A stretch of DNA of 31,256 nucleotides from a virus. The first letter of the stretch is position 1; every line of letters begins with the position of its first letter. A program made the translations under genes and the position numbers. Under the pieces are notes generated by a model. That model saw nothing but the letters and a program-made list of their open reading frames with translations, had not been told where the DNA came from and ran no database searches. This document shows positions 1,391 through 31,256 of this stretch, piece after piece. The stretch covers positions 1 to 31,256 of the IMG/VR virus record IMGVR_UViG_3300047189_000038, one strand, 5' to 3'.

Positions 1391-4148
1391 TGGATCAACG
1401 TTCTCAGTTGCTACACTTGCAACAGGTACAGGCATTTCAACTTCTGTTGGTTCGGGTACTCTCCAGATCAACAACACCGGCGTTACAAGCAATATTGCAG
1501 GAACAGGTATTGGTGTATCTGGTGCAACTGGTGCAGTAACCATTAGCAATACGGGTGTTACACAAATTACCGGCACAGCAAATCAAGTTAATGCTTCAGC
1601 TTCAACTGGTGCAATTACCTTAAGCCTACCACAGTCAATTAACACAGCAGCAACACCAACATTTGCTGGTATTACTATTACAGGTACTCCTTCAAATTCA
1701 ACTGATGCAGCAACTGTAGGATATGTTAATGCAGCAACTGCAGCATTGAATGTTCACCAAGCCGTAGATGTTCTTGCTGATGCTTCAAATATGGTGGTAA
1801 CAGCATCAACATACACAAATGGTTCAGCTGATGCGTCAGGTGGATTAGGCATTGGTGCTTTCTTACAAGATTCTACAACAGGTACGGTACTTGTTATTGA
1901 CACAGTAACAGTTGCTCTAAATGATCGTGTATTGGTTACTGGGTTCACAAGCACATCAGCAAAATATAATGGTATCTATTACGTAGCAACACTTGGTGTG
2001 GCTGGTACAACTAAGTGGAAATTAATTCGTGCAACAGATGCAGACAATAGTACCGCTGGTGAATTAACAACGGGTGACTTTACATTCGTATACAAGGGCA
2101 GTGCAACATATAAGGATACTGGTTGGGTACAGACAACTGTTGGTACAGGAACTCCAGCGGATGCAATTAAGATTGGCACAGATGCCGTTACGTGGACACA
2201 GTTCTCAGGAGCTGGTACATATTCCGCTGGTACAGGATTGTTATTAACAGGTACGGTATTCTCTAACACAGGTGTTTTATCAGCAGTAGCTGGCACAAAC
2301 ATCGCTGTATCGAGTGGTACAGGTAACGTAACAATTAGTGTAACAGGTACTGTTGCAAGTGCAACTAGTGCAACGAATGCAACAAATACAGCTATTACAG
2401 ATGATACAACAACCAATGCAACAATGTATCCTACATGGGTTACAGCAAATACTGGTAACTTGCCTCAGAAGACCACAAGTACCAAACTCACGTTTAACCC
2501 ATCAACGGGTATACTAGCTGCTACAACTTTTAGTGGTGCTCACAGTGGTAGTGGTGCTGGCTTAACAAGCATTCCAAACGGTGCATTGACAAATAGTTCT
2601 GTAACAATTGGTTCAACTGCAATATCACTCGGTGGTACATCAACAACACTAGCTGAATTAACATCAGTTGCAGCAACAACATTTACTGGTGCATTAACAG
2701 GCAACGCATCAACTGCTACATCAGCAGGTAGTGTAACAAATAGTGCTACGTTTAATAATGGTGGGGCTGGCGGTGCTTCTGGTTCAACGTATAATGGTGG
2801 TTCTGCATTAACAGTTTCTTATAACACAATTGGTGCTCCATCAACAACAGGTACTAATGCATCTGGTACCTGGGGTATTAGTATTTCAGGAAATGCTGCT
2901 ACAGCAACAACAGCAACAACAGCTACAACTGCAACAACAGCTACAAACCAATCGGGTGGTACTGTTAATGCAACAACTGGTGCATTTAGTAATACACTAT
3001 CTATTAGTAGCGGTACAATAATTCCGTTAGTACTAACAACATCAAGTGCTGGTCCATGGAGTATTCAGCTTGTACGTTCTGATTTGGGATTAAATTCCAA
3101 GGTATATAATGCAACAGGTACTCAATGGTACTTTGAGCATAGACCATCGTTCGCAGGTAATACTCCTCTTGATAGTGCTAATTACAATAGCTATTCACCA
3201 ACACTAACTGGTGGTAGTGCAAGTGGAACATGGGGTATTAATGTAACTGGTAACGCTGCAACTGCAACAACAGCAGGTGCTCTTACAACAGGCAATAACT
3301 ATCAGGTCAATTCACTGGGCGTTGGTACAGCAGCTAATGGAACACAAGGTGATATTATTGCATCTCGTTCGGGTGGTACAACAGGTGTCATTTACTTTGG
3401 TACAAGTGGTGGAAGATATTTGTACTATGATGGAACCCAGTACATTATGCCAACAGCACTACTATCAGTAGGAGGTGGTGTAAGCACAACAACAGGTACA
3501 TTCTCTAGCAACATGTTGTTCTCAGGTTTGCTCCAGAGAAATACAACATCTGGTTACCTCGAAGGTAACTACAGTGGTGTTGAAACTGGTTCAACAGCAG
3601 GCTGTATCTACACAATTGGTAGCTCAAGTTTTCGTCCAAATACAACAGCAACTAATGCTCTTGGCACAATGTACGGTATAGGATATAACTTATCAAGTGC
3701 AACAAATGGTGGCGGTACTACGATTGCTTCGACAACGGGGGTTGTAAGTGGTCAGTGGGGTATGTACGTTGCACAAGGTGGTACTGCAAACTGCTTCGTT
3801 GGAACTGGTGGAATGTACACTTCTGGAACTGTTCAGGGTGCAGTACTAAATGCAACATCTGATCGCAACCTTAAGAAGAATATTCGCAAGATCGATAACG
3901 CGCTAAGCATTATTGAAGGTCTAAATGGTGTTCGCTTTGATTGGATCAAGGACGATAAACCATCTGCTGGTCTTATTGCACAGGATGTTGAGGTCAATCT
4001 TCCAGAACTTGTTACAACACATGACGAAACAGGTATTAAAGTTCTAAACTACAATGGTGTAGTTGGAGCTCTTGTTGAGTCTGTAAAGGAATTGTCAGCA
4101 ATGGTTGCAGCTCTAAAGGCAGAGGTTGAACAGCTAAAGGCAAAGTAA
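1317..4148 (+). CDS. Long tail fibre with C-terminal S74 intramolecular chaperone domain
   Basis: This is the main body of the fibre begun at 1106. The frame is open from 1287, and the TTG at 1317 is not a convincing start. The first ~800 residues are Gly/Thr/Ala-rich repeats, including two GTWGI-x-x-x-GNAATATT units (around 2868 and 3229) and an ATT-type trinucleotide run (about 2895-2945). A more complex insert lies at about residues 140-310 (NVHQAVDVLADAS through VTWTQFSGAGTY). The last ~100 residues are a peptidase S74 (endosialidase chaperone) domain. It has the conserved TSDRNLKKNI motif with the self-cleavage serine codon at 3858-3860, then GVRFDWI, AGLIAQDVE and NYNGVVGALVE, and a terminal coiled coil. 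In this family the domain trimerises the fibre and then cuts itself off before the serine. The mature fibre probably recognises the host surface. Confidence 0.85.
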   Translation: MVQSPLVYGTGATATPTNGQLLIGNGSTFSVATLATGTGISTSVGSGTLQINNTGVTSNIAGTGIGVSGATGAVTISNTGVTQITGTANQVNASASTGAITLSLPQSINTAATPTFAGITITGTPSNSTDAATVGYVNAATAALNVHQAVDVLADASNMVVTASTYTNGSADASGGLGIGAFLQDSTTGTVLVIDTVTVALNDRVLVTGFTSTSAKYNGIYYVATLGVAGTTKWKLIRATDADNSTAGELTTGDFTFVYKGSATYKDTGWVQTTVGTGTPADAIKIGTDAVTWTQFSGAGTYSAGTGLLLTGTVFSNTGVLSAVAGTNIAVSSGTGNVTISVTGTVASATSATNATNTAITDDTTTNATMYPTWVTANTGNLPQKTTSTKLTFNPSTGILAATTFSGAHSGSGAGLTSIPNGALTNSSVTIGSTAISLGGTSTTLAELTSVAATTFTGALTGNASTATSAGSVTNSATFNNGGAGGASGSTYNGGSALTVSYNTIGAPSTTGTNASGTWGISISGNAATATTATTATTATTATNQSGGTVNATTGAFSNTLSISSGTIIPLVLTTSSAGPWSIQLVRSDLGLNSKVYNATGTQWYFEHRPSFAGNTPLDSANYNSYSPTLTGGSASGTWGINVTGNAATATTAGALTTGNNYQVNSLGVGTAANGTQGDIIASRSGGTTGVIYFGTSGGRYLYYDGTQYIMPTALLSVGGGVSTTTGTFSSNMLFSGLLQRNTTSGYLEGNYSGVETGSTAGCIYTIGSSSFRPNTTATNALGTMYGIGYNLSSATNGGGTTIASTTGVVSGQWGMYVAQGGTANCFVGTGGMYTSGTVQGAVLNATSDRNLKKNIRKIDNALSIIEGLNGVRFDWIKDDKPSAGLIAQDVEVNLPELVTTHDETGIKVLNYNGVVGALVESVKELSAMVAALKAEVEQLKAK
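1331..1350 (+). repeat. 13-bp-period direct repeat at the fibre frameshift
   Basis: ACTGGTG occurs at 1331-1337 and 1344-1350, so the unit is 13 bp, which is not a multiple of three. The fibre reads in one frame before this point and in the +1 frame after it. Loss of one unit by slippage would give ACC ACT GGT GCT ACA GCA and fuse the frames in register (TITTGATATPTNGQ). Confidence 0.6.
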
Positions 4149-9207: not shown

Positions 9208-9969
9208 TTATTCTCGCTCCCAACGATATCCTTTGCAGGTAGGCAATAACCCCTTCAAACACTTGTCGATGCCTGACCGATTAACATTCAGAGTTTTAGC
9301 AGCGTGTGAAATGCTGCTAAATTTCCGAACAACTTTGTCAGTATTTGGGTTTATTTGCCGCACGCCCGTCAGTCCTTTTCTTGGTCTAGGCTCATAGGTT
9401 TCATTGAAGCTGAAGTAATATCCTCCTGCGCTTCTGTTGTACTTGTACCCAAGGCAGCATTTGGATATGTTGGCTCTGTGAACGCCTAGCGCTTTTTCTG
9501 CTTCTACTGTGTTTACGTAGTTTCCAATGTTCTTGCCACTGCTGTTGAACACGTATATTCTTTTTGAGTTGACTGCATTCAATCCTCGGCGATTCATTCG
9601 TGGTCCAGTGCCCTTGCCTTTTCGTTCCTGCTTCCATTTTCGACGAAGCGCTGCTGTGTGCTTATACCCATAACAGCCCTCTCCTCCATCCGTCATGTTG
9701 AGTCCGTTGCCTTCAGGATACCTACGGATATTGGTTTTTTGAGTTGCGATCAGTTCTATTTCGTGTGCCTTGGCCTCCTCCTCAGTAGCACATTCTTGCA
9801 ACAACTCTATCGTGTGTTCACCCTTTCCATACTTTCGAAGACTTCGAGATATTAGGGTGTTTCGAGGTTCGCTATGGTGACCACACAATCTTGTGCCCAG
9901 CGTGCCGCTGGTATATCCAAAGTAAATTTTGCCAGTAATTCTGCAGGAAATCTTGTAGGTTTTATACAT
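9208..9969 (-). CDS. GIY-YIG homing endonuclease, free-standing
   Basis: 253 residues from the ATG at 9967-9969, chosen because GGAG lies six bases upstream. The N-terminal GIY-YIG nuclease domain is clear: TYKISCRITGKIYFGYTS, then the catalytic-Arg region GTRLCGHH. A linker with the NMTDGGEG motif (about residue 92) is typical of phage Seg-type enzymes. The C-terminal half carries NUMOD1/IENR-like DNA-binding repeats (IYVFNSSGKNIGNYVNTVEAEKALGVH and a second FSSISHAAKTLNVNRSGIDKCLKG). Its stop codon touches the RNR stop codon. Such genes cut rival phage genomes at a nearby site and spread by repair; the RNR gene end is the natural candidate target. A late-type box lies upstream at 10006-10013. 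Confidence 0.88.
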   Translation of the reverse strand: MYKTYKISCRITGKIYFGYTSGTLGTRLCGHHSEPRNTLISRSLRKYGKGEHTIELLQECATEEEAKAHEIELIATQKTNIRRYPEGNGLNMTDGGEGCYGYKHTAALRRKWKQERKGKGTGPRMNRRGLNAVNSKRIYVFNSSGKNIGNYVNTVEAEKALGVHRANISKCCLGYKYNRSAGGYYFSFNETYEPRPRKGLTGVRQINPNTDKVVRKFSSISHAAKTLNVNRSGIDKCLKGLLPTCKGYRWERE

Positions 9970-9980
9970 GGTGCGCTCCA

Positions 9981-10051
9981 GATGTAGTGTATGTAACATC
10001 TGTGGTATTTATCAAATCTTCACGGAGGTGTAGTGTCTGTAACATTAGTGG
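9981..10051 (+). repeat. Imperfect direct repeat upstream of the GIY-YIG gene
   Basis: Copy 1 at 9981-10005 and copy 2 at 10027-10051 share the core TGTAGTGT-x-TGTAACAT and the end GTGG, about 21 of 25 positions. Copy 1 also has internal dyad symmetry (AGATGT / ACATCT). This could be a binding site for a regulator or a relic of the endonuclease gene's insertion. Confidence 0.5.
10006..10013 (-). promoter_or_regulatory. Late-type promoter box GATAAATA (minus)
   Basis: One mismatch from the T4 late consensus TATAAATA, about 37 bases upstream of the GIY-YIG start at 9969. The identical GATAAATA box occurs before clpP at 21222-21229. Confidence 0.5.
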
Positions 10052-10176: not shown

Positions 10177-10318
10177 CATCGATAACAATTAGAACATTTT
10201 GCTCACATGGCGTAATTGGTAAACGCGACGTACTTGCAATACGTTGGTATATTGGTCCCTAGACCTCTGCCGTGATGGGTTCGAGTCCCTCTGTGAGCAC
10301 CATTTTTTGTTATCGATG
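10177..10318. repeat. Perfect 12-bp inverted repeat flanking the tRNA gene
   Basis: CATCGATAACAA (10177-10188) and TTGTTATCGATG (10307-10318) are exact complements on either side of the tRNA gene. In the precursor RNA they would pair and extend the acceptor stem after a small internal loop. GTGAGCA (10172-10178) can also pair with TGCTCAC (10200-10206), competing with the tRNA's own acceptor stem. Confidence 0.75.
10201..10302 (+). tRNA. tRNA, type II body with apparent UGC anticodon
   Basis: The acceptor stem GCTCACA / TGTGAGC is perfect, with discriminator A and an encoded CCA (10300-10302). The D arm is GCG..CGC with AATTGGTAAA in the loop. The anticodon stem ACGTA / TACGT (10228-10244) encloses CTTGCAA, so positions 34-36 read UGC (10235-10237), an Ala anticodon. 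A very long variable arm (about 29 nt, with GGTC-CCTA-GACC) is of Leu/Ser type. The T loop is TTCGAGT, but the T stem only pairs if T10276 is bulged. The AlaRS identity pair G3-U70 is absent (T3-A70), so charging with Ala is doubtful. The body resembles tRNA-Leu. A T-run follows the gene. Confidence 0.8.
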
Positions 10319-13984: not shown

Positions 13985-14590
13985 ATGAAATCAACAAAGA
14001 ATACAACTTGCAAGGTCTACAAAATCACCTGCATCCCCACGAAGAAAATCTATGTGGGGATAACGATTGAGAAGTACCTGTCTCAACGTTTCTGGCGTCA
14101 TGCTAATCGTCCTGGTGGTACATCGTATCTATTTAACTGCATCAAGAAGTACGGTAAAGACAACTTCACGATTGAGCAGTTGTATGAGTATGACACAGCA
14201 GCCAAAGCCAAACGAAAAGAAAAGCAGCTTATCAAAGCCTGGAAACTAAACAGAAACAGATTTCCCAACAGCAAGGGAATGAACCTTACGGATGGTGGTG
14301 ATGGTTCATATGGCATGCGACACACAACTGCATCCAAAAAGAAAATGAGTGGTAAGAATAATCACAATCATGGTCTACTCGGTATCCTCAACCCAACATC
14401 CAAGTCTATACAACAACTTACCCTTACTGGCGAACCAGTCAAGACGTTTGGTAGCATGCACGAAGCTGCTCGGTTCCTGAAACCTGGCTGTGACAAAAGA
14501 ACGCAATCAAGCGTTGCTATTAATATTCGCCAGGCTATTTTGGGGGTTAGTTGCAAGCAAATGTACGGCTATAAGTGGAAGTACGTTTAG
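13985..14590 (+). CDS. GIY-YIG homing endonuclease, free-standing
   Basis: 201 residues on the plus strand inside an otherwise minus-strand replication block. The GIY-YIG domain is clear: KVYKITCIPTKKIYVGITIE (about residues 10-29), then LSQRFWRH with the catalytic Arg, then NMNLTDGGDGSYG-type linker (residues ~98-108). The C terminus has one NUMOD1-like repeat (VKTFGSMHEAARFL). Its stop overlaps the phosphoesterase stop by four bases (TTAG shared), and it sits between the phosphoesterase and topoisomerase A genes, which identifies topoisomerase A as a likely target region. There is no good SD. A CATAAATA box just before the ATG is too close to serve it. Confidence 0.88.
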   Translation: MKSTKNTTCKVYKITCIPTKKIYVGITIEKYLSQRFWRHANRPGGTSYLFNCIKKYGKDNFTIEQLYEYDTAAKAKRKEKQLIKAWKLNRNRFPNSKGMNLTDGGDGSYGMRHTTASKKKMSGKNNHNHGLLGILNPTSKSIQQLTLTGEPVKTFGSMHEAARFLKPGCDKRTQSSVAINIRQAILGVSCKQMYGYKWKYV

Positions 14591-20542: not shown

Positions 20543-21187
20543 TCAATCAACGTTCTTCTTGACTGACTTCGTGCCCTTCTTCTTTGGCACCTTTGTCTTC
20601 GACATTTTGTCGAACACCTTTTGATTGATTTTAACCATCTTCTCGAGACGCTTGCGAATATCGTCAGACTGCAACCACAAGTCTTCGCCACGAACGATCG
20701 AGTTGAACTCTTCAACCGACAAGAACGGAACGTATAGCTTTTTAGCGAGTGTATTGAACCATTTGATTTGAGCTTCGAGCTGTGACTGTTGTTCGTTACC
20801 CTTGCCGAATACTCCACCACTGAAATTGTGGATCATCATTAGACAGTTGTCGTGAACAATGAACTCATCTGCCGCCAAGAAAATTAATGTACCCAATGAG
20901 TGACAGTTTGCTTCGATGCTGACGGTAACTTGCGCTTGTGTTGATTGCATTGCATTGATAATTTGAACACCAGTGTCAAGATGACCGCCTGGAGTATTCA
21001 AGTGAATGTAAATGATTTCATCTGCACCAGCCGTTTGAATTTTGTGCACCATATCGACATACTGCTCTGGCTCTTCAATAGCAGAGCTTAGGTAATAGTG
21101 CTGAACTCTGCGAGAAACTATTTGCTCATAATGAGTATACGGTTTAATTTGTTCTTCGTCTTTCTTGGGCTTTTCAATCGCGGCCAT
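20543..21187 (-). CDS. clpP: ClpP-like serine protease (S14 family)
   Basis: 214 residues. The ClpP fold is shown by HLNTPGGHLDTGVQIINAMQ (NSPGG-type motif, residues 63-81), the nucleophile Ser97 in ANCHSLGT (in place of ASMGA), and the catalytic His120 in LMMIHNF. The third acid is probably Glu168 or Asp169 (RGEDLWL). Known ClpP forms a double heptamer fed by ClpX or ClpA. Phage versions may replace or mix with the host subunit or act in head maturation. No head genes are nearby here. Instead it lies immediately downstream of the tmRNA gene, whose tag ends in ALAA. The C terminus is Lys-rich (KVPKKKGTKSVKKN). It has its own late-type box (21222-21229). Confidence 0.82.
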   Translation of the reverse strand: MAAIEKPKKDEEQIKPYTHYEQIVSRRVQHYYLSSAIEEPEQYVDMVHKIQTAGADEIIYIHLNTPGGHLDTGVQIINAMQSTQAQVTVSIEANCHSLGTLIFLAADEFIVHDNCLMMIHNFSGGVFGKGNEQQSQLEAQIKWFNTLAKKLYVPFLSVEEFNSIVRGEDLWLQSDDIRKRLEKMVKINQKVFDKMSKTKVPKKKGTKSVKKNVD

Positions 21188-21249: not shown

Positions 21250-21282
21250 GAAAAGAAAATACCACCCGAGGGTGGTATTTTC
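21250..21282 (-). terminator. Rho-independent terminator of the tmRNA gene
   Basis: A perfect 12-bp stem (GAAAATACCACC / GGTGGTATTTTC) with loop CTCG on the minus strand, followed by TTTT. It lies about 45 bases after the tag stop codon and defines the 3' end of the coding piece transcript. Confidence 0.85.
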
Positions 21283-21328
21283 TGGTTGGTTTGGTTTATA
21301 AGGTATGTCCTACCCCAGAGCTTTGAGC

Positions 21329-21388
21329 TTACGCAGCGAGTGCGAATCCAAAGTCTTCCATTGCTGGAAGAAATGCATTATCGTTTGC
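21329..21388 (-). other. tmRNA tag reading frame
   Basis: From the resume codon GCA (21388-21386) the frame reads 19 codons, ANDNAFLPAMEDFGFALAA, then TAA (21331-21329). The bases before it (TAATT-GCA-AAC-GAT) closely match the E. coli resume site (TAGTC-GCA-AAC-GAC). Adding the uncoded Ala gives a tag beginning AAND, as in E. coli, and ANDN, as in alphaproteobacterial tags. The end ALAA is the ClpX recognition signal. The tag is longer than the usual 8-15 codons. Confidence 0.9.
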
Positions 21389-21474
21389 AATTATAACGTT
21401 TTGCTTCATTAAGGACGATCGCCTGTCCAGTTGTCCGTGTTTCTTTACCCGTCAATCGATTCCAATTCAGGCCC

Positions 21475-21505
21475 AAAGAAGTCGCTCGCTATCGACTTTG
21501 AAAAT
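21475..21505 (-). other. Intervening segment of the permuted tmRNA
   Basis: A 31-base spacer between the encoded CCA end of the acceptor piece (21506) and the first G of the coding piece (21474). It can fold as AAGTCG / CGACTT with an 8-base loop. In known two-piece tmRNAs this segment is removed during processing, giving separate acceptor and coding RNAs. Confidence 0.75.
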
Positions 21506-21581
21506 TGGTGGACCTGTGGGGTTTCGAACCCCAGTCTTGTCCAGCTATTACAAACCCTTCATACAACTATATCAACAAGGG

Positions 21582-21589
21582 TATTTATA
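21582..21589 (-). promoter_or_regulatory. T4-type late promoter TATAAATA (minus) for the tmRNA
   Basis: Exact late consensus on the minus strand. A start about six bases further on would place the 5' end of the acceptor piece near 21575, giving an acceptor RNA of about 70 bases. Late expression of the tmRNA is therefore likely. Confidence 0.7.
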
Positions 21590-21617
21590 CAACATTCACT
21601 TATGAATGTCAATCTTG

Positions 21618-22124
21618 TTATTTTACCCAGCCATTTGGGTTTAACGGTTCTGAGTACTCTTCTGCAAATTCGTGCGGACCATCGTACGCTGGCAAATTGT
21701 TGTGGTCGAAATCCCCAGCGTTATATGACATCGTCATATGTGGATCAAACGTTGGGAAGTCATGCGTTGCACCATGTTGCTTTCGCAAGAAGTGATGACG
21801 ATCGTGAATTTCAGGGCAGTGGAACTTCATCACAAGGCAACGTCCTTGCTCTGCACCTTCTGCTTCTTCGATTGGTGAAGACGTTGGGAAGATGTCGTAC
21901 TCGTGAAATTTTGCCTTCCAAGTTGGATCGAGCTTGCCAAGTGGGCGAGCTCCAACAAATGCTCGACTGTAAACGACAGTCGCGTGTAGATCATTATCTT
22001 CTACTGGATTTGGGATTCTATGATCCCCCATAAACTCTCGCATTGCACGAATAGTTTCTTTTGTAGGCTTCACACCGAAGTAAGTACCTCGTGGAGCCAT
22101 CTCTCTTATCTCAATCAGTTTCAT
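21618..22124 (-). CDS. acb1: Probable Acb1-type anti-CBASS cyclic-oligonucleotide phosphodiesterase (2H family)
   Basis: 168 residues from the ATG at 22122-22124, with AAGGA five bases upstream. Two HxT motifs, DLHATVVYSR (His47, Thr49) and DPHMTMSYN (His129, Thr131), mark a 2H phosphoesterase. The surrounding pattern, GTYFGVKPTKE, IPNPV before the first motif, CLVMKFHCPEI, then RHHFLRKQHGATHDFP and the ending EEYSEPLNPNGW, matches my memory of T4 gp57B (Acb1). Acb1 degrades CBASS cyclic di- and trinucleotide signals and so blocks abortive infection. It is the last gene of the GroES-ThyA-DHFR operon and directly precedes the tmRNA late promoter. The identification is by pattern, not alignment. 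Confidence 0.7.
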   Translation of the reverse strand: MKLIEIREMAPRGTYFGVKPTKETIRAMREFMGDHRIPNPVEDNDLHATVVYSRAFVGARPLGKLDPTWKAKFHEYDIFPTSSPIEEAEGAEQGRCLVMKFHCPEIHDRHHFLRKQHGATHDFPTFDPHMTMSYNAGDFDHNNLPAYDGPHEFAEEYSEPLNPNGWVK

Positions 22125-22311
22125 ATTTCCTTCCAAGCAAATTTTGCAAGCGGCGGTCTACCCACCTCTCTGCGTATTCCATATCAATGTGTGTGGTGAC
22201 GGTCTCCTCATCATCTCCGAGGACGCGAGCAACGACGACATCTGTTTCGCTGTCTAAAATCACGTACGAGTAAGGACCTCTGCTACCTGCCACACATAAC
22301 TTTCTTGACAT
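22111..22311 (-). CDS. Hypothetical protein, 66 aa
   Basis: Unrecognised. It starts MSRKLCVAGSRGPYSYVILD with AAGG about nine bases upstream. It looks like a small beta-rich N-terminal part followed by a helix (MEYAERWVDRRLQNLLGRKY). Its 3' end overlaps the acb1-like start by 14 bases, suggesting coupled translation. It has no Cys pairs or membrane span. Confidence 0.55.
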   Translation of the reverse strand: MSRKLCVAGSRGPYSYVILDSETDVVVARVLGDDEETVTTHIDMEYAERWVDRRLQNLLGRKYETD

Positions 22312-24398: not shown

Positions 24399-24686
24399 CT
24401 ACAGAACAAAAAGAATGTCTGCCTCACGAACGACAAGATACTTCTCGCCGCCATCAGTGACTTCAGTTCCAGCCGTCTTCACAAATACGGCGACTTCCCC
24501 GACCTGAACGTCAAGGGGTCTCACGTCACCGTTCTTACTACGTACACCAGGACCGACTGCAACAATCTTACCACGCACTGTGGTCTCTTTGTCAATCAAG
24601 CTGGCAAGTACAATGCCACCTTTCGACGTCGTTGTTGGTACTTCTGCTTTGACAATAACACGATCATCCATTGGTCTAATTTTCAT
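24399..24686 (-). CDS. groES: GroES-like co-chaperonin
   Basis: 95 residues, the standard length. MKIRPMDDRVIVKAEVPTTT, SKGGIVLASL, GKIVAVGPG, PLDVQVGE, AGTEVTDGGEKYLVVREADIL together give the complete GroES fold in order, including the mobile-loop region (residues ~16-30). It is far closer to bacterial GroES than to T4 gp31. Phage co-chaperonins cap host GroEL and widen its cavity for capsid protein. Whether this one does so for the phage head protein is inferred. Located in the nucleotide-metabolism operon. Confidence 0.9.
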   Translation of the reverse strand: MKIRPMDDRVIVKAEVPTTTSKGGIVLASLIDKETTVRGKIVAVGPGVRSKNGDVRPLDVQVGEVAVFVKTAGTEVTDGGEKYLVVREADILFVL

Positions 24687-26467: not shown

Positions 26468-28024
26468 CTAGTTTTTGCTTCCATCATCCAGGAAAACGTC
26501 TAGCAGCGTTTGGTCACCTTGTACTTCGAATGAGGCACGCACTTCGTGCTTCTCATCTACGGACTCGAGTTTGACATCATATCCCCACAAAAACGCGACC
26601 TTTTTAAGAGTCTCTGTTGTTGTTTCAGCCTCGAGCGGACGGTTGTTAACCATGTAGTGGCGTAACGTAATTGTACGATCGCCCCAACGATCAACATCAA
26701 ACACCTGGATGTCAGGAATCATGTAACCGAAGTTGTATTGTTTTGCCAACGCATCACGAACAACCTTGTATCCCTGTTTGTTGTGAATACCAGAAATCAA
26801 GTACTTTGGATCAGCTTCATCGTCGTGTGTAGCAAACAACTTGAAGTCTCTAATTACTTTTGGCGATAGGAACTGCTGAATGAAGCTTTCGTCCTTAAAA
26901 CCTGCAATGGCAAAGTCAATTGCAGATAAATAGTCTCCGCTCCCCACCCACTGCTGGTTTCCAAACCACTCACGATCTTCTTCGGTTGGGTTCATCGCAA
27001 CACGTTCAATGTCGCGATACATTGCAAACCCAAGCGCATACACGTTGATGCCTGAGTAATACTTGTGGTCGAAGTCAAGCTGGTTGACAACACCGGTGTG
27101 TGATTGGTAGAACTCCATCAACGCACCATCGTCAACAATCTTCTCATCATACAAGTCGTGAATCAATTTGTAATGGAAGTACGTTGCACATCCCTCGTTC
27201 ATCAACTTTGTTTGACCTTGTGGGTAGAAGTACTGAGCGACCTTACGAACAATACGAATAATTTCACGCTGCCAATCCTTCAATCGAGGAGCATTCTTCT
27301 CAATGAAGTACAGCAAATTCTCTTGTGGTTCTTTTGGAAACTTGTCTTCATCCTTTGCTGTTTTTGCTACCTTCTCTTTGTGTGGAACCGTCCGCCAAAG
27401 GTCGTTGAGCTGAGATTGAATATATTGTTCACGCTCCTTTTGTAGCTTTTCTTCAGCAGCAGCGGATAACTTTGGCGGACGCTTGTACTTGTCCACTCCA
27501 TAGCGCTGTAACGCATGTGCAGCATCGAGAATTGCCTCGACTTCATCAACACCATACTTCTCTTCACAGTCGGCGATATACTTCTTGGCGAATGCAAGAT
27601 AGTCAATGATGCTACCTGCATCCGTCCATTGTTTGAATAGATAGTTGTTCTTGAAGAACGTATTGTGGCCAAATGATGCATGAGCAATGACAAGTGCTTG
27701 CATCAACATTGTGTTTTCTTCCATCAAATATGCAATGCATGGATCAGAGTTGATTACAATCTCGTAAGCAAGACCCATGTAGCCACGCTTGTATGCTTCC
27801 AACTCACGAATGAATTGCTCACCATAAGACCAGTGATTGTACATCAGAGGCATGCCAACAGCAGAGTATGCATCAAGCATTTGCTCCGATGAAATGATCT
27901 CGAGTTGGTTTGGATAGTACGGACGCTTGTATTTTGCCTTCCAGATACGTTCAAGTGCGTTGTACGTATCGTCGATCATATCAAACGTCCATTCCTGGCC
28001 ATCTGTGATTTTGAGTTCTGTCAT
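26468..28024 (-). CDS. spoVR: SpoVR family protein (YcgB-like)
   Basis: 518 residues, the normal family length. Hallmarks seen in order: YNHWSYGEQF (about 62-71), LAYEIVINSDPCIAYLMEEN (84-103), AHASFGHNTFFKNNYLF (114-130), LMNEGCATYFHYKL (about 275-288), and near the end YMIPDIQVFDVDRWGDRTITLRH. SpoVR of Bacillus is needed for spore cortex formation; in Gram-negatives the homologue YcgB is a stationary-phase protein made with YeaG and YeaH. The biochemical activity is unknown, though the conserved His/Glu clusters suggest metal binding. Its ATG follows the yeaH stop by one base, showing tight coupling. It is complete and shows no sign of decay. Confidence 0.93.
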   Translation of the reverse strand: MTELKITDGQEWTFDMIDDTYNALERIWKAKYKRPYYPNQLEIISSEQMLDAYSAVGMPLMYNHWSYGEQFIRELEAYKRGYMGLAYEIVINSDPCIAYLMEENTMLMQALVIAHASFGHNTFFKNNYLFKQWTDAGSIIDYLAFAKKYIADCEEKYGVDEVEAILDAAHALQRYGVDKYKRPPKLSAAAEEKLQKEREQYIQSQLNDLWRTVPHKEKVAKTAKDEDKFPKEPQENLLYFIEKNAPRLKDWQREIIRIVRKVAQYFYPQGQTKLMNEGCATYFHYKLIHDLYDEKIVDDGALMEFYQSHTGVVNQLDFDHKYYSGINVYALGFAMYRDIERVAMNPTEEDREWFGNQQWVGSGDYLSAIDFAIAGFKDESFIQQFLSPKVIRDFKLFATHDDEADPKYLISGIHNKQGYKVVRDALAKQYNFGYMIPDIQVFDVDRWGDRTITLRHYMVNNRPLEAETTTETLKKVAFLWGYDVKLESVDEKHEVRASFEVQGDQTLLDVFLDDGSKN

Positions 28025-28025
28025 G

Positions 28026-29321
28026 TTACTTTCGCTTCTCGAATAGTTTGCGGAACAAAGGATAGATTTGTGCTACATCTCCAATTACCGACATCACAAA
28101 GTTCCTATTGAACTCTGTTAGTGGTTGATATACAGGCCACAAGTCACTACTCGTTCCCTTCGATGGATCACTTCCCTTCTTAACTTCAACATATGCAAAG
28201 TATTGACTAATTGGAAGGATACGATTGGCCAGGACATCCTTTGCGATTGGATTATCCTGTGTGTAGTTATCACCGTCCGAAATATGTGTACCGAATACAT
28301 TCCATTGTGTTAGTGGATAGCGTTCCTTGACAATGTTAGCCATCATCTCATAGGCAGGTGATACAACTGTACCTCCACTTTCCTGTGAATGGAAGAATTC
28401 CTCTTCTTCAACTTCCTTTGAAATTGAGTGATGACGAATCCATACGATGTCGACACGCTCATAGTTGTGATGCAAGAACAACAGCATCAACATAAAGAAA
28501 CGCTTTGCCATTTCCTTCTTCCACTCATCCATCGATCCTGAGACGTCCATGATACCAAACATCACAGCCTGTGTTGTTGGTGTTGGGAACTTCTCCCAAC
28601 GATTGTATCGGAGGTCCATATCATCAATGAATGGAACAGCTTTCTTCTTACGCTTCAACACTGTGATCTCTGCTTCGATCTCTTCAATTCGAGCCTTGAT
28701 CTCTTCTGTGATTGGAACTTGTTGAGCTAATAGCATTAACTCACGTTCAAGTTCCTTAATCTTCTTTGCCTTAGGAGAACGAAGTGCAATGCGGCGGCTC
28801 TTGGCTTGCTTCATTGAACGGAGAATATTGAGTCGACTTGGATTACCATCAACTGTAAACCCAGCACGCTTCATGACATAGTTGTCAACCGACACCATGT
28901 CTTTCTTAACCATGTCTGGAAGTTCTAAGTCCTCAAAGAACAAATCGAGAAACTCTTCGCGAGAAAGCGTGAACTCAAAATCGTCCTGACCTTCGCCGTC
29001 TGGTGATCCCTTTGAACCACCACCGCCTGCTCCGCCTTCTGGCTTTGGTATGCGATCGCCTGCTTCGTATTCCTTATTGCCTGGTCGAACAACATCACGA
29101 ACACCACCATGACTATCATGCTGGAATTCAGGTTGTGTTAATCCCTTCTTTTGAATTCGGACTTTTTGAGACTTGCCGAGGTTGTCTTGGATTGAACCGT
29201 CACGGATGATTTCTTTGACGGCTTCTTTCACCTGCTCGCGAACACGACGGACATAGCGTGCACGATTTGTTGCACTCTTCTTTTTGTCGTTCTTGCGACG
29301 GTCGATAATAACGTAGGCCAC
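28026..29321 (-). CDS. yeaH: YeaH/DUF444 protein with VWA domain
   Basis: 431 residues from the GTG at 29321-29319, preferred over the ATG at 29357 because AGGAG lies eight to nine bases upstream and AYVIIDRRKNDKKKSATNRARY is the standard YeaH N terminus. A Gly-rich linker (EGGAGGGGSKGSPDGEG, residues ~96-112) is followed by a helical region. The VWA domain then has the metal-site motif MDVSGSMDEWKK (Asp259-x-Ser-x-Ser), which binds ligand through Mg2+. In E. coli yeaG and yeaH are one operon under stress and stationary-phase control. YeaH is thought to work with the kinase YeaG. A perfect hairpin lies just upstream of its SD. Confidence 0.93.
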   Translation of the reverse strand: MAYVIIDRRKNDKKKSATNRARYVRRVREQVKEAVKEIIRDGSIQDNLGKSQKVRIQKKGLTQPEFQHDSHGGVRDVVRPGNKEYEAGDRIPKPEGGAGGGGSKGSPDGEGQDDFEFTLSREEFLDLFFEDLELPDMVKKDMVSVDNYVMKRAGFTVDGNPSRLNILRSMKQAKSRRIALRSPKAKKIKELERELMLLAQQVPITEEIKARIEEIEAEITVLKRKKKAVPFIDDMDLRYNRWEKFPTPTTQAVMFGIMDVSGSMDEWKKEMAKRFFMLMLLFLHHNYERVDIVWIRHHSISKEVEEEEFFHSQESGGTVVSPAYEMMANIVKERYPLTQWNVFGTHISDGDNYTQDNPIAKDVLANRILPISQYFAYVEVKKGSDPSKGTSSDLWPVYQPLTEFNRNFVMSVIGDVAQIYPLFRKLFEKRK

Positions 29322-29335
29322 TATATTCTCTCCTA

Positions 29336-29366
29336 CTGTGGGTATTGAAAACTCCAATACCCACAG
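29336..29366 (-). promoter_or_regulatory. Perfect 12-bp hairpin between prkA and yeaH
   Basis: CTGTGGGTATTG / CAATACCCACAG with a 7-base loop, directly before the yeaH SD (TAGGAG). It has no U-tract, so it is not a standard terminator. It may be a processing or stability element that sets the ratio of prkA to yeaH. A weak late-like CCTAAATA sits on its 5' side. Confidence 0.7.
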
Positions 29367-29383
29367 CTATTTAGGGATCAAGC

Positions 29384-31256
29384 TTAGTTGTGCTTGCGGT
29401 ATCTCATGTACCACTCTACAGCCAATCTAACCTGCTTCTTCGTATAGCCCTTCTTCGTCATACGATCAACGAACTCGTTGTGCTTCTCTTCTTCCTCGGC
29501 TGTTGCCTTCTTGCTGAAGGAAATCACTGGGAGCAAGTCTTCCGTGTTTGCAAACATCTTCTTCTCGATCACTTGGCGAAGTTTCTCGTAGTTTGTCCAA
29601 TCTGGATTCTTACCCTGATTGGTCTTGCCGTAGCGAAGAACATAACCAACCGTCTCGTTGCGGAAGTCCTTTGGATTTGCGATACCAGCTGGTTTCTCGA
29701 TCTTCTCGAGTTCAGCATTCAGTGCTTCACGGTCGAACATCTCGCCTGTGTCTGGATCACGATAATCCTTCTGCTCAATCCAAGCATCCGCGAACATGAT
29801 GTAGCGGTCGAACAAGTTCTGTCCGTACTCGTGGTAGCTTTCAAGATAAGCCTTCTGCAGCTCGTCGCCGATGAACTCGGCATACTTAGGTGCAAGGATT
29901 CCCTTGATGAAGTCAATACGACGTGTCTCTTCTTCCGAAGGCAACTGCTCCTGTTGCAACTGACGCTCGAGAACGTAGAACAAGTGAATTGGATTACCTG
30001 CTACTTCTTCTGGATCGAAGTTGAACACCTGTGAAAGGATCTTATATGCAAAGCGTGTTGATGAACCTTCCATACCTTCGTTGACACCAGCAGCCTCACG
30101 ATACTCCTCGAGGCTCTTAGCCTTTGGATCCTTATCCTTGAGGTTCTTACCATCATACACTTCCATCTTTGAGAATGGAGTGCTGTTCTCAGGTTCCTTC
30201 AAACGAGTGAGCACAGAGAACTGAGCCATCAAGTTCAAAGTTCCTGGAGCGATAGGAGCCTGCGACAATTCAGAGTTTGCAATCAGCTTCTTGTAAATCT
30301 TCTCTTCTTCAGTGACACGTAGGCAATATGGAACCTTAACAATGTAGACACGATCAAGGAATGCCTCGTTGGTCTTGTTGTTGCGGAACGCCTGCCACTC
30401 ACTTTCGTTACTGTGCGCAAGAATAACTCCCTGGAATGGGATGGCACCAAACTGTTCAGTACCGTTGTAGTGGCCTTCCTGTGTTGCTGTCAATAGAGGA
30501 TGCAACATCTTGATAGGAGCCTTGAACATTTCAACGAATTCCATGATGCCCTGTGTGGAGACGTTCAATCCACCAGCCCAGTTATACGCATCTGGATCGT
30601 GCTGCTCATACTCTTCCAACTCACGAATGTTGACTTTACCAACCAACGAACTGATGTCCTGGTTGTTTTCATCACCTGGCTCAACCTTTGTGATACCACG
30701 CTGGTCGAGGATCGAAGGCCATACTTTGACGACCTTGAACTGAGTGATATCGCCTTCGACTTCGCGAAGACGCTTTGCTGCCCAAGGTGATGGGATTGTC
30801 TTCAAGTAGCGAACTGGAATGCCGTACTCTTCTTCAAGAGTCTTGCCATCTTCCTTCGCATCAAACAATCCTAGCGGCGATTCGAGGATCGGACTGATCT
30901 GCCACTGATTACGATTCTTGTTGAATGCCTTGAGAGCGTAGATAGGGACACGCTGCGCAAGTTCCTTTAATCTCTCAGATAGAGACGACTTACCACCACC
31001 GACAGGTCCGAGTAGATAAAGGATCTGCTTCGATTCTTCCAACCCTTGCGCAGCGTGCTTAAAGAATGAAACAATCTTTTCGATTGTTTCCTCTGTTCCG
31101 AAAAAATCACTGAATGCGGGATAGACTTTAATCTTGCGATTCATAAAGATGCGCGACATGCGATCATCCGTACGAGTGTCTACGACTACCGGGTCGCCAA
31201 TCGCTGTTAGCATGCGCTCCGCGGTTGTGGCGTACGTGCTTCTGTCTTGCTTGCAG
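29384..31256 (-). CDS. prkA: PrkA/YeaG AAA+ serine protein kinase, 5' end beyond the window
   Basis: 623 residues are visible. The ATG at 31213 is internal: the 14 codons before it (CKQDRSTYATTAER) continue the known YeaG sequence, and only about 27 residues are missing at the right edge. The AAA+ part has ILYLLGPVGGGKSSLSERL (Walker A), KVVKVWPSILDQRGITKVEP and DENNQDISSLVGKV. QGIMEFVEMFKAPIKMLHPL, ILAHSNESEW and FLDRVYIVKVPYCLR follow. The C-terminal PrkA kinase-like domain has YAEFIGDELQKAYLESYHEY, DRYIMFADAWIEQKDYRDPDTG and YTKKQVRLAVEWYMRYRKHN. In bacteria PrkA/YeaG responds to starvation and stress. From memory the match to E. coli YeaG is very strong over the whole length, unusual for a phage gene. 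Confidence 0.95.
   Translation of the reverse strand, partial: CKQDRSTYATTAERMLTAIGDPVVVDTRTDDRMSRIFMNRKIKVYPAFSDFFGTEETIEKIVSFFKHAAQGLEESKQILYLLGPVGGGKSSLSERLKELAQRVPIYALKAFNKNRNQWQISPILESPLGLFDAKEDGKTLEEEYGIPVRYLKTIPSPWAAKRLREVEGDITQFKVVKVWPSILDQRGITKVEPGDENNQDISSLVGKVNIRELEEYEQHDPDAYNWAGGLNVSTQGIMEFVEMFKAPIKMLHPLLTATQEGHYNGTEQFGAIPFQGVILAHSNESEWQAFRNNKTNEAFLDRVYIVKVPYCLRVTEEEKIYKKLIANSELSQAPIAPGTLNLMAQFSVLTRLKEPENSTPFSKMEVYDGKNLKDKDPKAKSLEEYREAAGVNEGMEGSSTRFAYKILSQVFNFDPEEVAGNPIHLFYVLERQLQQEQLPSEEETRRIDFIKGILAPKYAEFIGDELQKAYLESYHEYGQNLFDRYIMFADAWIEQKDYRDPDTGEMFDREALNAELEKIEKPAGIANPKDFRNETVGYVLRYGKTNQGKNPDWTNYEKLRQVIEKKMFANTEDLLPVISFSKKATAEEEEKHNEFVDRMTKKGYTKKQVRLAVEWYMRYRKHN

Follow-up and report, generated by a model that had tools for sequence, protein, structure and literature searches.

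Why would a phage encode its own tmRNA, and does the protease gene that adjoins it serve the same function? The locus that raises these questions lies in an IMG/VR record of 31,256 bases, the whole of which was analysed and is called the window here. For the first of them, the conserved pairing of a phage tmRNA with a phage ClpP, without SmpB or ClpX, provides a concrete testable hypothesis. The window encodes the T4-type topoisomerase subunits gp39 and gp52, primase, ThyA, DHFR, PhoH, and NrdA. The nearest relative of its gp39 is that of the Sinorhizobium phage phiM9, with an identity of 35%, and no DNA similarity to isolated phages was found among 50,697 phage records. Several other genes of the window deserve mention. 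PrkA, DUF444 (YeaH), and SpoVR, which form a single operon in bacteria, are consecutive on the minus strand at 26468-31213, and a GroES/Cpn10 gene is situated at 24399-24686 (minus). Two GIY-YIG homing-endonuclease-like genes, at 9208-9999 (minus) and 13985-14590 (plus), adjoin the NrdA and topoisomerase genes, and one of the two contains NUMOD1 repeats. In addition, a tRNA-like match of 49.7 bits at 10201-10299 (plus) bears a 26-nt insert in the variable region and was not reported by ARAGORN.

We found a complete circularly permuted tmRNA gene on the minus strand from 21575 to 21283, within a block of replication and nucleotide-metabolism genes, and its identity as a permuted (two-piece) tmRNA gene is nearly certain. 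The first-pass annotation had proposed a gene of this kind and suggested a covariance-model search; two Rfam models scored above their cut-offs, RF04321 (tmRNA_permuted) with 136.4 bits and an E-value of 6e-27 over the window (cut-off 47) and RF01849 (alpha_tmRNA) with 90.1 bits (cut-off 50), and all of the features that it listed were present in their places. It had also warned that simple searches would miss the gene, and ARAGORN indeed reported no tmRNA gene in the window; because ARAGORN was the tool of the surveys cited below, phages probably carry such genes more often than those surveys suggest. The features of the locus are as follows.

21618-22136, minus: Acb1-like anti-CBASS gene (Pfam Acb1, 104.8 bits), directly upstream of the tmRNA promoter
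21584-21612, minus: predicted sigma-70-like promoter TTGACA-N17-TATAAA, -35 at 21612-21607 and -10 at 21589-21584
21506-21575, minus: acceptor piece with the 5' part of P2, T arm, acceptor 3' strand, discriminator, and CCA, from the RF04321 and RF01849 alignments and the sequence; 5' end approximate
Within the acceptor half, minus: T arm TGGGG-TTCGAAA-CCCCA
21516-21510, minus: acceptor 3' strand CAGGTCC
21509, minus: discriminator A, followed by the encoded CCA at 21508-21506
21475-21505, minus: spacer, a 31-nt hairpin between the CCA and the acceptor 5' strand, fold -6.0 kcal/mol
21283-21474, minus: coding piece with the acceptor 5' strand, D domain, P2, PK1-like hairpin, resume site, tag, and 3' region, from the RF04321 and RF01849 alignments; 3' end approximate
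21474-21468, minus: acceptor 5' strand GGGCCTG, forming 7 bp with CAGGTCC, including G3-U70
21329-21388, minus: tag reading frame ANDNAFLPAMEDFGFALAA with stop TAA, by translation; the frame agrees with the resume site of the model
21254-21283, minus: terminator-like hairpin of 13 bp followed by TTTTC, fold -20.3 kcal/mol, z -6.8
20543-21187, minus: ClpP-family serine protease of 214 aa (Pfam CLP_protease, 51.6 bits, cut-off 20.2)

The acceptor half lies 5' of the coding half, and the two pair as the acceptor stem, with the foldable spacer that the first reading had described between them (21505-21475); its removal during maturation is expected. Both the G3-U70 alanine identity pair and the CCA end are present, the D-domain signature of the coding half is GGAATCGA, and a PK1-like hairpin appears in the covariance-model alignment of the same half. 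The tag ANDNAFLPAMEDFGFALAA terminates in ALAA, a Clp-type degron, and the tags of the relatives mostly end in LAA or AA. Of 84,980 genomes of bacteria and archaea searched, none contained the core of the tag, and no cellular source of the tag was found. The viral permuted tmRNAs of contigs L038, L065, L072, and L103 have predicted tags that are very long, at 28-29 residues, ANDNASNVFSFVDFSNARKYVNEDFALAA being one example.

That the two halves fit each other through 7 bp with G3-U70 was part of the original claim, and the compensatory changes in the relatives agree with it. In seven clean tmRNAs from the ClpP clade described below, every one of the 12 pairs in the acceptor and T stems is formed (84/84 cells), a percentage biased by an extraction score that rewards pairing. 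Double-sided changes occur in 7 of these 12 pairs, a number that none of 500 shuffles attained; 3 of the 7 acceptor-stem pairs taken alone carry double changes, and the pairing falls to 57% or less when the partner is shifted by one column. The acceptor stems among the relatives include GGGGATG/CATCTCC, GGGCCTG/CAGGTCC, GGGCCCG/CGGGTCC, and GGGGCTG/CAGCTCC, with G3-U70 kept throughout. Because of the extraction score, the covariation supports the pairing and does not prove it; the covariance-model scores are independent of that score. In about one third of the relatives, the simple extraction gave no clean acceptor stem or encoded CCA, yet the Rfam model matched. Energy-only co-folding yields the acceptor stem, but the interaction energy of -9.8 is not beyond the shuffles (mean -7.2, minimum -13.9), and the true pair of halves is inseparable from shuffles by thermodynamics alone.

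The predicted promoter matches 6/6 positions in each box (the -10 scored against TATAAA) with a 17-nt spacer, p < 1/300 in shuffles. Of 20 further tmRNAs tested, 7 are preceded by a TTGACA-like box (at least 5/6) exactly 17 nt before TATAAA, or 8 when the TATAGT of L152 is accepted. The first-pass annotation had assigned the gene to a late unit, which does not agree with this promoter of its own or with the surrounding replication and nucleotide genes. The string TATAAATA was probably the source of that placement; its reading as a late promoter was rejected, the string being the -10 part of TTGACA-N17-TATAAA, with similar boxes in several relatives. Such a promoter would fit transcription of the tmRNA early in infection by the host RNA polymerase, as argued for the phage Melnitz, whose tmRNA is placed just after an early promoter (PMC9004378).

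The ClpP gene, on which the first reading made no remark, lies directly downstream on the same strand, and its start is 141 nt from the stop of the tag. The triad Ser97-His120-Asp169 is invariant in 23 homologues. The predicted model of the protein has a pLDDT of 88, and its top PDB match in Foldseek is the ClpP of a ClpX-ClpP complex with ssrA-tagged GFP. Judged by its sequence, the protein is a member of the ClpP-fold family and not an ordinary bacterial ClpP, with 29.7 bits against the cut-off of 308.6 for the bacterial equivalog TIGR00493; this distance makes its docking to the host ClpX uncertain.

Is the adjacency of the two genes a property of this window or of a lineage? A single-sequence scan of viral contigs with the window ClpP gave three loci, and in each of them a permuted tmRNA precedes ClpP in the same orientation, with one opposite-strand ORF between the two genes in L123. 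A profile scan gave 376 candidates, 80 loci of which were read; their records were searched with RF04321 and the distances computed. We defined the ClpP clade by an identity of at least 44% to the window ClpP; it comprises 23 contigs, with L160 set aside and L154 untestable, the contig end being too near. In 20 of the 22 testable contigs, a tmRNA in the same orientation precedes ClpP by no more than 1.3 kb; after the removal of near-identical contigs, the count is 14 of 16. The exceptions are L146, which has no tmRNA, and L150, where the tmRNA is about 86 kb from ClpP. An Acb1 homologue is close to the pair in most clade members.

In the case of L160 (ClpP identity 44%), a sub-cut-off RF04321 match proved on reading to be a permuted tmRNA that contains a long insertion. 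At 3118-3858 of this contig, a spacer of ~585 nt separates the acceptor half (CATCTCC-A-CCA) from the coding half (GGGGATG). Inside it lies an ORF of 186 aa (3192-3752) whose HNH-like motif is not confirmed by Pfam; this ORF may be a homing endonuclease gene housed in the tmRNA spacer that is cut out.

In the records of the 80 loci, no tmRNA above the RF04321 cut-off is adjacent to the ClpPs of 34-43% identity; three members of one group have a tmRNA 3.3 kb upstream, where a fourth member has a weak partial match. Beyond the clade, L054 and L057, whose ClpPs of 33-34% identity lie in tRNA clusters, have a tmRNA directly before ClpP, and in L073 the ClpP lies just past a tmRNA resume motif near the contig end. 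No standard-form tmRNA (RF00023) above the cut-off was found beside other phage ClpPs in 50 records, and many of the sub-threshold matches are tRNA-like. We also picked 50 IMG/VR records for permuted-like sequence from a pattern scan, the counts referring to the matches listed and giving no frequency estimates. Among the matches listed, a permuted tmRNA above the cut-off is present in 49 of these 50 records, and any ClpP in 4, adjacent in 2. On these counts, the idea that every phage tmRNA is coupled to a ClpP was rejected; ClpP is no general partner of phage tmRNA, and tmRNA is a usual neighbor of this kind of ClpP.

We regard it as probable, with good confidence, that the window belongs to a T4-type phage whose permuted tmRNA performs trans-translation through host factors, possibly with the phage ClpP as the protease chamber, although the ClpP linkage could reflect inherited gene order. 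We infer the processing, charging, and activity of the RNA, and its joint role with ClpP, as follows. As in bacterial two-piece tmRNA, RNase P and the tRNA 3' processing enzymes would cut the precursor into acceptor and coding pieces that are kept paired. The host AlaRS would charge the RNA through G3-U70, and the host SmpB, with which a function in trans-translation is likely, would deliver it to stalled ribosomes. The stalled peptide would then gain the tag and pass to ClpX with a ClpP partner; the tagged products would feed Clp proteolysis, in which the phage ClpP is possibly involved, and a joint action of phage tmRNA and phage ClpP is plausible. Neither SmpB nor the Clp ATPase C-terminal domain of a Clp unfoldase was found in 28 records, many of which are fragments and five of which exceed 150 kb. 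Clade records without an adaptor or unfoldase, yet with an adjoining ClpP, suggest that the phage would provide the RNA and the protease chamber and borrow the adaptor and the unfoldase from the host.

How closely the two genes work together separates two readings. The tmRNA may only supplement or replace the host tmRNA in ribosome rescue, with an unrelated ClpP that adjoins it through conserved gene order, and we give this reading a nearly even chance. It agrees with the clade-wide conservation of the syntenic block Acb1-tmRNA-ClpP-primase-gp39 and with the 46 of 50 picked permuted-tmRNA records that lack a ClpP among the matches listed. However, the second ClpP group of L054 and L057 shows the same tmRNA-ClpP order, and the pair persists although the intervening and upstream genes differ between relatives. 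The other reading, which we hold tentatively as a possibility, is a dedicated tag-and-destroy unit, in which a tmRNA with its own tag and the phage ClpP, together with the host SmpB and ClpX, would degrade the products of stalled ribosomes. If this were true, protein removal or recycling, not ribosome rescue alone, would select for the phage tmRNA.

Three further readings depart from trans-translation or from the tagging role of ClpP. The ClpP-like neighbor could be a head-maturation protease without a part in tagging, and its best NCBIfam match is the head-maturation ClpP model, with 70.5 bits under the cut-off of 120; but the best-fitting PHROG is 1827 'ATP-dependent protease', the gene lies within the replication block, and such a role is unlikely because a separate T4 gp21-type S77 prohead protease is present elsewhere in all 7 clade contigs of at least 116 kb. 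It is still harder to regard the RNA as an inhibitor or decoy of the host tmRNA, like the tmRNA-like RNA of the mycobacteriophage DS6A, which has no tag frame and inhibits tmRNA in E. coli (PMC11915505), against the intact tag frame, resume site, stop, CCA, and G3-U70 in the window, which are kept in the relatives. The least credible origin is a passenger, that is, a fragment or copy of a host ssrA gained by integration or imprecise excision. Integration at ssrA is common (PMC9004378, PMC11915505), but the phage gene is complete, has its own predicted promoter, is kept with changed tags in a deep clade of large phages, and carries a tag core foreign to the cellular genomes searched.

The trans-translation reading places the RNA beside several known systems. 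The first-pass annotation had implied that phages carry only one-piece tmRNAs, which published work contradicts: two-piece tmRNA is described in Melnitz and in 53 among 18,146 phage genomes (PMC9004378), and the tmRNA database holds 79 phage tmRNA sequences (PMC11915505). The two-piece tmRNA of Alphaproteobacteria (RF01849, RF04321) has the same order of acceptor half, spacer, and coding half, the same T arm, CCA, D signature, and G3-U70, and likewise a resume site UAUAAUUGCAAACGA and a tag ending in LAA. In contrast, the window gene lies on a phage, encodes its own tag, has the acceptor stem GGGCCTG, and adjoins a phage ClpP. The tmRNA of Melnitz and its relatives is similarly phage-encoded and permuted with an early promoter ahead, but that of Melnitz includes a glutamine riboswitch and is located upstream of a gene for a transcription coactivator, and a ClpP linkage is not described (PMC9004378). 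Huge phages were also reported with tmRNA and, unlike the 28 records here, with SmpB (PMC7162821). The ClpP of jumbo phages is likewise a serine protease of large phages with a patchy distribution, but its survey does not mention tmRNA (PMC7824862). No description of a phage tmRNA-ClpP linkage was found in the literature searched, a scope outside which most subscription journals and bioRxiv lie. The two-piece type of tmRNA was already known in phages, and the conserved arrangement of tmRNA and ClpP is the new part.
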